A stretch of DNA of 45,055 nucleotides, taken from Flavobacterium sp. GTDB lineage: Bacteria; Bacteroidota; Bacteroidia; Flavobacteriales; Flavobacteriaceae. Of this stretch, positions 15,555 to 19,092 are shown piece by piece. Location of the stretch: positions 1-45,055 of the forward strand of contig JAAFGY010000009.1 of the NCBI GenBank assembly GCA_010365135.1, read 5' to 3'. A program made the translations under genes and the position numbers. Within the stretch, counting starts at the first letter, position 1; each line of letters begins with the position of its first letter. The notes under the pieces were generated by a model. It did no database searches, was not told the DNA's origin, and saw only the letters and a program-made list of their open reading frames with translations.

Positions 15555-17888
15555 ATGCGCAAATACATCGACCAACTTAACGAAGCCCAACGCGAACCCG
15601 TACTCCAAAAAGATGGCCCAATGATTATAATTGCTGGTGCGGGCTCGGGAAAAACGCGTGTATTGACCATTCGAATCGCTTATTTGATGAGTTTGGGTGT
15701 GGATGCATTTAGTATTTTGGCGCTTACATTTACCAATAAAGCGGCGCGCGAAATGAAAAAACGTATCTCCGATATTGTGGGTTCCAACGAAGCCAAAAAT
15801 CTTTGGATGGGAACTTTTCACTCGGTTTTTGCTCGAATTCTACGTTCCGAAGCCGATAAATTGGGTTATCCTTCCAACTTCACGATTTATGATTCCCAAG
15901 ATTCTGTTCGAGCGATTTCGGCGATTATTAAAGAAATGCAACTGGATCGAGATGTTTACAAACCAAAACAGGTTTTAAGTCGAATCTCTTCTTATAAAAA
16001 TAGTTTAATTACTGTAAAGGCTTACTTCAATAATCCCGAATTGCAAGAGCAAGACGCGATGAGCAAAAAGCCTCGTTTGGGCGAAATTTACCAAAATTAT
16101 GTTGATCGTTGTTTCAAGGCTGGCGCAATGGATTTTGATGATTTGTTGTTGAAGACCAATGAATTATTGACTCGCTTTCCGGAAGTTTTGGCGAAATATC
16201 AGAATCGTTTTCGTTATATTTTAGTCGATGAGTACCAAGATACCAACCATTCACAGTATTTGATTGTTCGTGCTTTATCGGATAAATTTCAAAATATTTG
16301 TGTCGTTGGTGATGATGCACAAAGCATTTATGCCTTTCGTGGTGCCAATATCAACAACATCCTGAATTTCCAAAAAGATTACGAAGGCGTGAAAACCTTT
16401 CGATTAGAACAAAATTACCGTTCCACCAAAAATATTGTGGAAGCGGCAAATACCATAATTGACAAGAATAAAACCAAACTTGACAAGATTGTTTGGACAG
16501 CCAATGATTTTGGTCCAAAAATAAAAGTGCATCGCAGTTTAACCGATGCCGAAGAAGGGCGTTTTGTAGCCAGCACGATTTTCGAACAAAAGATGCAAAA
16601 CCAAATGATGAATGGGCAATTTGCCATCTTGTATCGCACCAATGCACAATCCCGTGCTATGGAAGATGCGTTGAGAAAACGCGATATTCCGTATCGAATT
16701 TACGGAGGTTTGTCTTTTTATCAACGAAAAGAAATTAAGGATGTTTTGTGTTATTTGCGTTTGGTGATCAATCCAAAAGATGAGGAAGCATTAGTTCGAG
16801 TGATCAATTATCCGGCTCGTGGAATAGGGGATACAACGGTTGAAAAACTGACAGTTGCGGCCAATCATTACAAGCGTTCCATCTTTGAAGTCATGCAGAA
16901 TATTGACAAAATCGACTTGAAATTGAACTCGGGAACGAAACAAAAACTACAAGATTTTGTGACAATGATTCAGAGTTTTCAGGTGATTAACGAAAATCAA
17001 GATGCGTTTTATATTACCGATCACGTGGCAAAAAAAACAGGATTGGTTCAAGAATTAAAGAAAGATGCGACTCCAGAAGGAATGGCAAAAATCCAAAATA
17101 TCGAGGAATTATTAAACGGTATCAAGGATTTTACCGAAGGTCAAAGAGAGATTGACGGAGCTCGTGGGGCTTTGTCCGAATTTATGGAAGACGTTGCTTT
17201 GGCAACTGATTTAGACAAGGACACTAGCGACGAAGATCGTGTTGCTTTGATGACGATTCACTTGGCAAAAGGTTTAGAGTTTCCGCACGTTTTTGTGGTG
17301 GGAATGGAAGAAGATTTGTTTCCAAGTGCGATGAGTATGAGTACCCGAAGCGAACTCGAAGAAGAACGTCGTTTGTTTTATGTCGCACTAACTCGTGCTG
17401 AACATCAGGCTTATTTGACTTATGCACAATCTCGATACCGTTGGGGGAAACTAACCGACAGCGAACCTTCACGTTTTATCGAAGAAATCGATGGACAGTA
17501 TTTAGAATATCTTACACCTGAAGAAAATAATTACCGCTATAAACCAATGATTGACAGCGATATTTTTGGCGATATTGATAAATCCAAATTGCGTTTGGCA
17601 AAACCAATAGCAGGAACACCGCCTAATTATGTTACGAATAACGAACTCAAATCGGAGATTACTGTCCGTAAATTAAAACCAGTTGCGAGCAATTCTTCTT
17701 CGGGAGCTGCCAATTTATTTGATAATAAGCTTGCAGCTGGAAATATTGTAATGCACGAGCGTTTTGGTAAAGGCGAAGTGTTAAACCTTGAAGGTGTTGG
17801 CGCAGACAAAAAAGCGGAGATTAAATTTGAAGTTGGAGGGATAAAAAAATTGTTGTTGCGTTTCGCAAAATTGGATGTTATAGGGTAG
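15555..17888 (+). CDS. UvrD/PcrA-type ATP-dependent DNA helicase
   Basis: 777 aa; AGAGSGKTRVLTIRIAYL, VDEYQDTNHSQY, FRLEQNYRSTKNI, LMTIHLAKGLEFPHVFVVGMEE. Confidence 0.95.
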   Translation: MRKYIDQLNEAQREPVLQKDGPMIIIAGAGSGKTRVLTIRIAYLMSLGVDAFSILALTFTNKAAREMKKRISDIVGSNEAKNLWMGTFHSVFARILRSEADKLGYPSNFTIYDSQDSVRAISAIIKEMQLDRDVYKPKQVLSRISSYKNSLITVKAYFNNPELQEQDAMSKKPRLGEIYQNYVDRCFKAGAMDFDDLLLKTNELLTRFPEVLAKYQNRFRYILVDEYQDTNHSQYLIVRALSDKFQNICVVGDDAQSIYAFRGANINNILNFQKDYEGVKTFRLEQNYRSTKNIVEAANTIIDKNKTKLDKIVWTANDFGPKIKVHRSLTDAEEGRFVASTIFEQKMQNQMMNGQFAILYRTNAQSRAMEDALRKRDIPYRIYGGLSFYQRKEIKDVLCYLRLVINPKDEEALVRVINYPARGIGDTTVEKLTVAANHYKRSIFEVMQNIDKIDLKLNSGTKQKLQDFVTMIQSFQVINENQDAFYITDHVAKKTGLVQELKKDATPEGMAKIQNIEELLNGIKDFTEGQREIDGARGALSEFMEDVALATDLDKDTSDEDRVALMTIHLAKGLEFPHVFVVGMEEDLFPSAMSMSTRSELEEERRLFYVALTRAEHQAYLTYAQSRYRWGKLTDSEPSRFIEEIDGQYLEYLTPEENNYRYKPMIDSDIFGDIDKSKLRLAKPIAGTPPNYVTNNELKSEITVRKLKPVASNSSSGAANLFDNKLAAGNIVMHERFGKGEVLNLEGVGADKKAEIKFEVGGIKKLLLRFAKLDVIG

Positions 17889-17905
17889 AAGTTGTGTTTT
17901 TGCAC

Positions 17906-17963
17906 GTCTGTTCGAGTGTTTTATTAAAAATGCGACAGCTTTTTTAATAAAATGTATCGAGAA
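17906..17963 (+). repeat. REP-like palindrome, copy L (upstream of GIY-YIG gene)
   Basis: gtctgTTCGAGTG-ttttattaaaaa-[tgcgacagct]-tttttaataaaa-TGTATCGAGAA; 12-bp perfect stem (17919-17930/17941-17952), 10-nt loop. Confidence 0.85.
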
Positions 17964-17988
17964 TTATTTTAAGAAAAAGAGAAATAAT

Positions 17989-18282
17989 ATGAAACAGTCT
18001 TATGTTTATATTTTAAAATGTTCTGATAATTCTTATTACACCGGAGTTACAAGTAATTTAACTCGAAGACTTTTTCAACACGAAACAGCATTTTATCCAG
18101 ATTGTTACACAGCAAATAAAAGACCAGTTCATTTGGTTTATTATTGTGAATTCACCCATATTAATTTTGCAATTGATATTGAGAAGAAAATCAAAAAATG
18201 GTCAAGAGCAAAAAAAGAAGCTTTGATTAATGAAGAGTATGACAAACTTCCTAATTTAGCAAAGAAAAAGTTTAATAAATAA
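17989..18282 (+). CDS. GIY-YIG nuclease superfamily protein (small, YhbQ/UPF0213-like)
   Basis: 97 aa; SYVYILKCSDNSYYTGVTSNLTRRLFQHE. Confidence 0.92.
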   Translation: MKQSYVYILKCSDNSYYTGVTSNLTRRLFQHETAFYPDCYTANKRPVHLVYYCEFTHINFAIDIEKKIKKWSRAKKEALINEEYDKLPNLAKKKFNK

Positions 18283-18288
18283 TCACTA

Positions 18289-18366
18289 GTCAGTTCGAGT
18301 AATTTTTAAAGCTAGACAAATATTGATTGAAAAAAGTAAGCGTTTTGCTTTAAAAAATGTATCAAT
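18289..18366 (+). repeat. REP-like palindrome, degenerate copy M (downstream of GIY-YIG gene)
   Basis: gtcagTTCGAGTaatttttaaagc ... gctttaaaaaaTGTATCaatag; same end sequences, longer loop. Confidence 0.6.
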
Positions 18367-18387
18367 AGCAATCCGTACAATAAAAAC

Positions 18388-18449
18388 TTCTCGATACAAT
18401 TTTTAATAGTAAAGCTATCGCATTACTATTAAAAATCACTCGAAGTGAC
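18388..18449 (-). repeat. REP-like palindrome, copy R (inverted relative to L)
   Basis: ttctcgataca-atttttaatagtaa-[agctatcgca]-ttactattaaaaat-cactcgaagtgac; 14-bp perfect stem; loop is the reverse complement of tgcgatagct. Confidence 0.85.
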
Positions 18450-18471
18450 GGAGAAAATAAACAAAATAATA

Positions 18472-19092
18472 ATGGCACAATTCATAAAAATATACGAAGA
18501 TAAACCCAACGAAGCGGCAATTGCCAGAGTCGTGAAGGTTTTACAAGACGGTGGTTTGGTGATTTATCCAACCGATACCGTTTACGGTTTGGGATGCGAT
18601 ATTACTAATACCAAGGCTTTGGAACGCATTGCCAAAATAAAAGGAATAAAATTGGAAAAAGCCAATTTCTCCTTTATCTGTTATGATTTGAGCAACCTTT
18701 CAGATTATGTGAAGCAAATTGACACGGCCACTTTCAAGATTTTAAAACGGGCATTACCGGGTCCATATACTTTTATTTTACCAGGAAATAACAATCTGCC
18801 AAAGGAATTCAAGAAGAAAACCACGGTCGGAATTCGTATACCAGATAATTCCATTGCTTTGGAAATCGTCCGGCAATTGGGCAATCCCATTGTTTCCACA
18901 TCTATTTATGACGAAGACGAAGTGATAGAATATACCACCGATCCAGAACTTATTTTCGAAAAATGGCAAAACCTTGTCGATATGGTTATTGATGGTGGAT
19001 ATGGCGATAATCTAGCTTCAACGATTATTGATTTATCGGGCTATGAACCTGTTGTTGTTAGGGAAGGTAAAGGAGACATAGATATACTTTAA
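18472..19092 (+). CDS. L-threonylcarbamoyladenylate synthase family protein (Sua5/YciO/YrdC)
   Basis: GGLVIYPTDTVYGLGCDI...KANFSFICYDLSNLSDYV...LPGPYTFILPG. Start moved to MAQFIKIYED because the longer ORF runs into repeat R. Confidence 0.9.
   Translation: MAQFIKIYEDKPNEAAIARVVKVLQDGGLVIYPTDTVYGLGCDITNTKALERIAKIKGIKLEKANFSFICYDLSNLSDYVKQIDTATFKILKRALPGPYTFILPGNNNLPKEFKKKTTVGIRIPDNSIALEIVRQLGNPIVSTSIYDEDEVIEYTTDPELIFEKWQNLVDMVIDGGYGDNLASTIIDLSGYEPVVVREGKGDIDIL

Follow-up and report, generated by a model that had tools for sequence, protein, structure and literature searches.

The short palindromic repeats called REPs have been sorted into two superfamilies, GTAG and CGTC, the first of which has RAYT (Di Nocera 2013, PMC3733652). 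The RAYT transposase together with its GTAG-REPs or REPINs makes up the REPtron (Nunvar 2010, PMC2817692; Bertels and Rainey 2011, PMC3116915). The CGTC superfamily was found to "apparently lack a dedicated transposase"; its named hosts are A. lipoferum, S. meliloti, Bradyrhizobium and N. aromaticivorans, and the Neisseria repeat CGTC-1 is dRS3 (Di Nocera 2013, PMC3733652). CGTC-tagged REPs, listed as including Neisseria dRS3 and Rickettsia RPE-4/RPE-6 (PMC3733652), are the known repeats closest to those described here. Two kinds of GIY-YIG protein are also relevant. UPF0213 stand-alone GIY-YIG proteins (1zg2, 1ywl) are similar in size to the protein we investigated and contain the same domain by profile; the solved members are of unknown function, and to our knowledge UPF0213 has not been associated with repeats. 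Free-standing homing endonucleases of the I-TevI type resemble the gene described here as selfish nuclease genes without a transposase of their own. We found no paper that links GIY-YIG proteins to REPs in the literature searched, which did not cover bioRxiv and most subscription journals.

A GIY-YIG gene between outward-tagged palindromes

The window, the whole stretch of 45,055 nucleotides analysed here (Flavobacterium sp., GCA_010365135.1, JAAFGY010000009.1, positions 1 to 45,055, forward strand), contains a unit of about 546 bp (17905-18450) located between uvrD/pcrA (15555-17888) and a Sua5/YciO gene (18475-19092). The unit consists of a left palindrome on the plus strand (copy L, 17905-17963), a stand-alone gene for a GIY-YIG nuclease of 97 aa (17989-18282, plus strand; PF01541, E 2.4e-16), a degenerate palindrome (copy M, 18289-18366, plus strand) and an inverted right palindrome on the minus strand (copy R, 18388-18450). 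The inner hairpin of copy L is TTTTATTAAAAA-TGCGACAGC-TTTTTTAATAAAA, with TGTATCGAGAA as its end, and that of copy R is ATTTTTAATAGTAA-TGCGATAGC-TTTACTATTAAAAAT; the loops are TGCGACAGCT and TGCGATAGCT. Folded as single-stranded DNA, copy L reaches -11.7 kcal/mol (z -5.0) and copy R -13.7 kcal/mol (z -6.0), and none of 200 shuffles folded as well. The inner helices have 13 pairs in copy L and 15 in copy R, although their sequences differ. A preliminary description of the locus, made from sequence alone, had reported shared ends, a common loop and differing but base-paired stems for copies L and R, and had called copy M degenerate. All of this held, but the outward CGTC tag on both copies (17905-17908 in copy L; 18447-18450 on the minus strand in copy R) had been missed. 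Copy M has no significant fold (z -1.7), which leaves a function as a hairpin unsupported. At the same locus in the relative G005, an intact palindrome has a sequence similar to that of copy M.

The system resembles a REPtron in that one gene lies between two inverted, tagged short palindromes, in its dispersed gene-less dimers, in its covarying stems and in the tie between repeat type and enzyme clade. It fulfils the criterion that a gene is bracketed by inverted tagged REPs and that further copies of that REP are dispersed; however, the enzyme is a GIY-YIG nuclease and not an HUH/Y1 transposase, the tag is (C)GTC and not GTAG, and the covalent tyrosine intermediate is not expected. Judged as CGTC-REPs, copies L and R satisfy the requirements for a terminal CGTC/TGTC tag outside the stem and for head-to-head dimers with outward tags, but not those for a stem of 8-9 bp, a loop of 4-5 and a CCA tail: the inner stem is longer (13-15 bp) and AT-rich, an outer TCGA pair is present, and the CCA tail is missing. 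The window palindrome is therefore a variant outside the published CGTC-REP definition. Unlike genes of the I-TevI type, the window gene is not accompanied by an intron or intein, encodes no NUMOD or other DNA-binding domain beyond its 97 aa, and is flanked by its own dispersed palindromes.

The protein meets the criterion for the GIY-YIG superfamily, with a PF01541 match of 60.2 bits against a curated cut-off of 22.6. Its active-site residues Y7, Y17, G19, R27, H31 and E65 are all intact; among 136 homologues G19, R27, H31 and E65 are conserved in 100% and Y7 and Y17 in 97-99%. A profile of the protein matches the UPF0213 structures 1zg2 and 1ywl, and the single-sequence AlphaFold model is of only moderate quality (pLDDT 70), so that no conclusion rests on it. 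GIY-YIG is the only domain present, and the HUH/Y1 transposase (PF01797) criterion of a RAYT or REPtron is not met. No NCBIfam model matches the gene. The reading as a defence system was dropped as PADLOC gave no match, a phage origin was dropped as tblastn with a Bradyrhizobium homologue gave 0 matches in 50,697 phage records, and the reading as an RNA element was dropped as Rfam returned only two sub-threshold chance matches.

Bracketing, copy number and cognate repeats in other genomes

The preliminary description had confined its proposal to Bacteroidota. This did not hold, as the arrangement reaches many phyla: homologues occur in Bacteroidota, Alpha- and Gammaproteobacteria, Chloroflexi, Treponema, Fibrobacter, Saccharibacteria, Buchananbacteria, Verrucomicrobia and others, and those in named genomes have the same bracketing layout with different palindromes. 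The best inverted-repeat score was at least 20 at 105 of 132 loci, compared to 40 of 506 displaced controls. With a detector that requires a stem of 8-9 bp after a GTC tag, outward tagged hairpins lie on both sides of 49 of the 80 named loci, against 1/151 displaced loci and 0/395 shuffles; inward-facing pairs were found at 14 of the 80. C or T precedes GTC in most hairpins of the named loci (116/128). At 17 of the 80 named loci this strict detector found no tagged hairpin; some of these have differently shaped stems. The query profile was built from bracketed genes, and these figures consequently cover only a single branch of the small GIY-YIG proteins.

CGTC-REPs of the published hosts are among these repeats. 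Neisseria, A. lipoferum, S. meliloti, Bradyrhizobium and N. aromaticivorans each have a GIY-YIG gene between outward CGTC/TGTC hairpins, and the CGTC-REP traits (CGTC/TGTC tag, 8-9 bp stem, short loop, CCA tail, head-to-head dimers) are found at bracketed GIY-YIG genes of A. lipoferum, S. meliloti, Bradyrhizobium, Sphingomonadales and Neisseria. The criterion of an 8-9 bp stem, a loop of 4-5 and a CCA tail is met at the A. lipoferum and Bradyrhizobium genes; A. lipoferum has the exact defining form, CGTC-ATCCCCGC-GAAG-GCGGGGAT-CCA (stem 8, loop 4).

A Legionellales MAG (L124) has its GIY-YIG gene between inverted repeats of about 180 bp (score 106), without a simple tagged hairpin. In L080 and L081 the C-terminal peptide of the GIY-YIG ORF, GFDSAQPDS, is the flanking palindrome translated. 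L025 (G022:C1:180877-184077) is a tandem array of five or more 350-bp units, in which every unit combines an 83-aa GIY-YIG ORF with a piece resembling a tRNA 3' end, and L026 (G010:C1) has one ORF of this 83-aa type after a tRNA 3' end. The ORFs of L025 and L026 represent a different GIY-YIG family that appears to ride on tRNA ends.

In the window's own genome the exact end pattern has only two matches, the pair flanking the gene, and a looser pattern has three; here the palindrome has not multiplied. In the genus we searched with TTCGAGT-N(25-55)-TATCGAGAA, using the reversed pattern as control. At least one copy was found in 65 of 150 congeneric genomes, with a maximum of 49 copies per genome, whereas the controls were near zero; an unverified impression in the preliminary description that such repeats abound in Flavobacterium was correct. 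Of the congeneric genomes, 23 encode a close nuclease homologue (about 69-100% identity). All 23 carry copies, and 20 carry five or more, compared to 17 of the 127 genomes without a close homologue (P 5e-12). For another palindrome class in the family Flavobacteriaceae, the comparison with versus without the gene gave 38/71 against 10/80 (P 7e-8) and 281 against 32 copies. The comparison of copy number with gene presence is limited to Flavobacteriaceae. In 14 genomes a cognate GIY-YIG gene lies within 300 bp of 39 of 155 copies, where uniform placement expects 0.10; these genomes were the ones with a printed copy list and a known gene, and the figure thus describes gene-bearing genomes.

These results bear on what the preliminary description had said would refute it. 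A palindrome found only here would have done so, which is true within the window's own genome but false in relatives. Equal density of copies in genomes without the gene, and GIY-YIG neighbours no closer to copies than random genes, would also have counted against it; neither refuted it, as copies are far denser in gene-bearing genomes and the neighbours are about 400 times closer than chance. There are copy-rich genomes without a close gene, such as G047 (19 copies in a 100% complete genome) and G017 (44 copies). Exceptions like G047 look like orphaned repeat populations, although this is no more than a possibility. The TCGAG palindromes of G047 (L294-L299) are nearly identical and form clusters in which they alternate. 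Tandem duplicates were also found, and several copies of the GIY-YIG gene are interrupted by stops.

Every clade of the nuclease is paired with a cognate palindrome of its own. Mapping six repeat classes on the protein tree requires 14 label changes, compared to 64.5 with shuffled labels. This figure is inflated by near relatives, and a comparison within genomes is stricter: where a genome has two nuclease genes of different clades, a distinct repeat is found at each gene (6/6). The hairpin stems covary, which reveals that their structure is under selection. In the class GTCA-NN-CTGAACTYGTTTCAG-NN-TC, whose four N positions were unconstrained in the search, both free pairs are Watson-Crick in 100 of 112 copies, whereas re-paired arms gave 15.7 as expectation and 31 as maximum. 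The inference of structural selection drawn earlier for the window's stems is likewise supported: in the window's class 8.9 of 10 positions are paired (52 distinct copies), against 6.6 after the arms were re-paired.

Presence and absence at conserved sites

The unit is mobile, being present or absent at otherwise conserved sites. The adjacency of uvrD and Sua5 is kept in 29 of 30 congeneric loci, and the GIY-YIG gene is found in the gap only in G000 and G005. G019 has repeat remnants without the gene; in other relatives the gap is shorter or holds unrelated genes or repeats. In G015 and G006 (L220, L225) it holds another GTC-tagged class, of the CTGAGC...GTCGAAG type, and from these two loci the gap is likely a recurrent landing place. 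In Azospirillum lipoferum 4B the unit separates sufB from sufC, and relatives that are 95-96% alike lack it; two of the three Azospirillum empty sites have no such hairpin. Sinorhizobium C101 has a unit of 836 bp where S. meliloti Ak57 has 34 bp. On the C101 replicon pC101a (L250) the unit is bracketed by long composite palindromes, of which the replicon has about 30 copies; the composites resemble rhizobial RIME elements, a resemblance that does not establish identity.

In Sphingobium plasmids the gene is present or absent between fnrL and a response-regulator gene (the fnrL-fixJ site), and in two gene-less plasmids one fused hairpin remains. A single palindrome in the gene-less allele is thus seen in Sphingobium TomTYG64/74 (CCGTCACCCCGGGTCAAGCCCGGGGTGACGG; L254, L252), and also in S. 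meliloti Ak57 pSymB (L258). These palindromes fit homing into a palindrome as well as they fit the footprint of a deletion. With respect to the criterion for a homing endonuclease, the locus is intergenic and without an intron, and two gene-less alleles have a single palindrome; however, cleavage of a gene-less allele is not shown. Dimers without the gene also occur. Sphingobium plasmids have outward dimers of 83-86 bp, one of which has no counterpart at the corresponding position of two related plasmids, and G005 (L237, L239, L242, L243) has MITE-like composites of 187-209 bp that contain two outward CGTC-tagged TCGAG hairpins enclosed by the longer terminal inverted repeats AACCCGTTGGGTGTAATTA. 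No target-site duplication was readable at the empty sites compared, because the closest of these are only about 85-96% alike.

A REPtron-like reading and its rivals

On balance we lean towards the interpretation that the gene and its two inverted palindromes form a REPtron-like mobile unit, with the nuclease acting on its own palindromes. In such a unit the GIY-YIG nuclease would occupy the role of the RAYT transposase. It would most likely recognise a hairpin that carries an outward (C)GTC tag and has extruded, either from DNA left single-stranded by replication or as a cruciform, and would cut at or near the tag. The cut may free the DNA between two outward-tagged copies, or template its copying; the cargo would be the gene unit or, as non-autonomous passengers, dimers of about 80-200 bp that lack the gene. 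The evidence establishes the architecture, the match between repeat and nuclease, the covariation, the tie between copy number and gene, the presence/absence pattern and the intact active site, whereas binding, the position of cleavage and the nuclease as the cause of the spread are inferred without biochemistry. The suggestion in the preliminary description that a GIY-YIG nuclease takes the RAYT role is supported to this extent, by clade-specific and paralogue-specific repeats, stem covariation, and presence/absence at conserved sites; that the nuclease binds and cuts the palindromes, and that their spread is its work and not that of host repair, is not shown. The route of insertion, by strand transfer or break repair, is also inferred, and the data do not separate transposition from homing-like repair. 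The covalent intermediate on which Y1 transposases rely is not known from GIY-YIG enzymes, and a strand-transfer step therefore remains unexplained. Other observations that weigh against the interpretation are the copy-rich genomes without a close gene (G047, G017), the lack of a readable target-site duplication, the palindrome's failure to multiply in the window's own genome, and the 17 named loci where the strict detector found no tagged hairpin.

A possible alternative explanation is that the nuclease is a homing parasite. If this were the case, the palindromes would spread by other means, the nuclease would cut the palindrome, and break repair would copy the gene unit into it. GIY-YIG is a classical homing endonuclease fold, the gene-less alleles of Sphingobium TomTYG64/74 and S. 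meliloti Ak57 retain a single palindrome, and gene-less repeat populations exist (G047). However, palindrome copy number is tied to the cognate gene and the repeat sequence co-varies with the nuclease clade, which is what a nuclease that drives the repeat would produce; the single hairpins are equally explicable as deletion footprints, and two of the three Azospirillum empty sites lack one. It is unlikely that the nuclease is a domesticated guardian that resolves or trims repeat cruciforms and shields the host, its proximity to the repeats being due to selection and not to mobility. The SLX1 branch of GIY-YIG nucleases is known for structure-selective cleavage, and the active site is conserved; however, most relatives lack the gene at this locus, it is located at varied sites, several copies are disrupted by stops, and the gene is flanked by its own repeat class, not by the genome's other repeats.

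Passive hitchhiking, in which a RAYT or other transposase moves the palindromes and the GIY-YIG gene merely became caught between two of them, is very unlikely. Y1 transposase genes are indeed present in 11 of 12 genomes tested; nevertheless, the window's palindrome lies within 300 bp of none of 24 Y1 genes, on which ground RAYT was rejected as its mover. Many Y1 genes have other inverted repeats, and the association recurs with a single protein family over many phyla. That the palindromes do no more than terminate transcription or stabilise mRNA at a small gene, and are similar by chance, is all but excluded. The hairpins are immediately outside the gene, where transcription could reach them, but the dispersed copies already contradict this reading, and the conserved ends and tags beyond the hairpin, the outward orientation and the cognate matching also speak against it.

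A bolder version of the REPtron-like interpretation is that GIY-YIG nucleases are the dedicated mobilisers of the CGTC superfamily, including Neisseria dRS3 and probably the Rickettsia repeats; this could as easily prove wrong as right. If it is true, transposition or copying would be carried out by a hydrolytic GIY-YIG nuclease in place of an enzyme of the HUH, DDE, serine or tyrosine type. In many bacterial genomes few dispersed repeats are as common as REP-like palindromes of the CGTC type, and what moves them was left open by the 2013 survey; the question would become directly testable with short hairpin DNA and the 97-aa protein. Many genes labelled only 'GIY-YIG nuclease family protein' or 'excinuclease ABC subunit C' would gain a function, and the REPtron design would have arisen twice, with unrelated enzymes.
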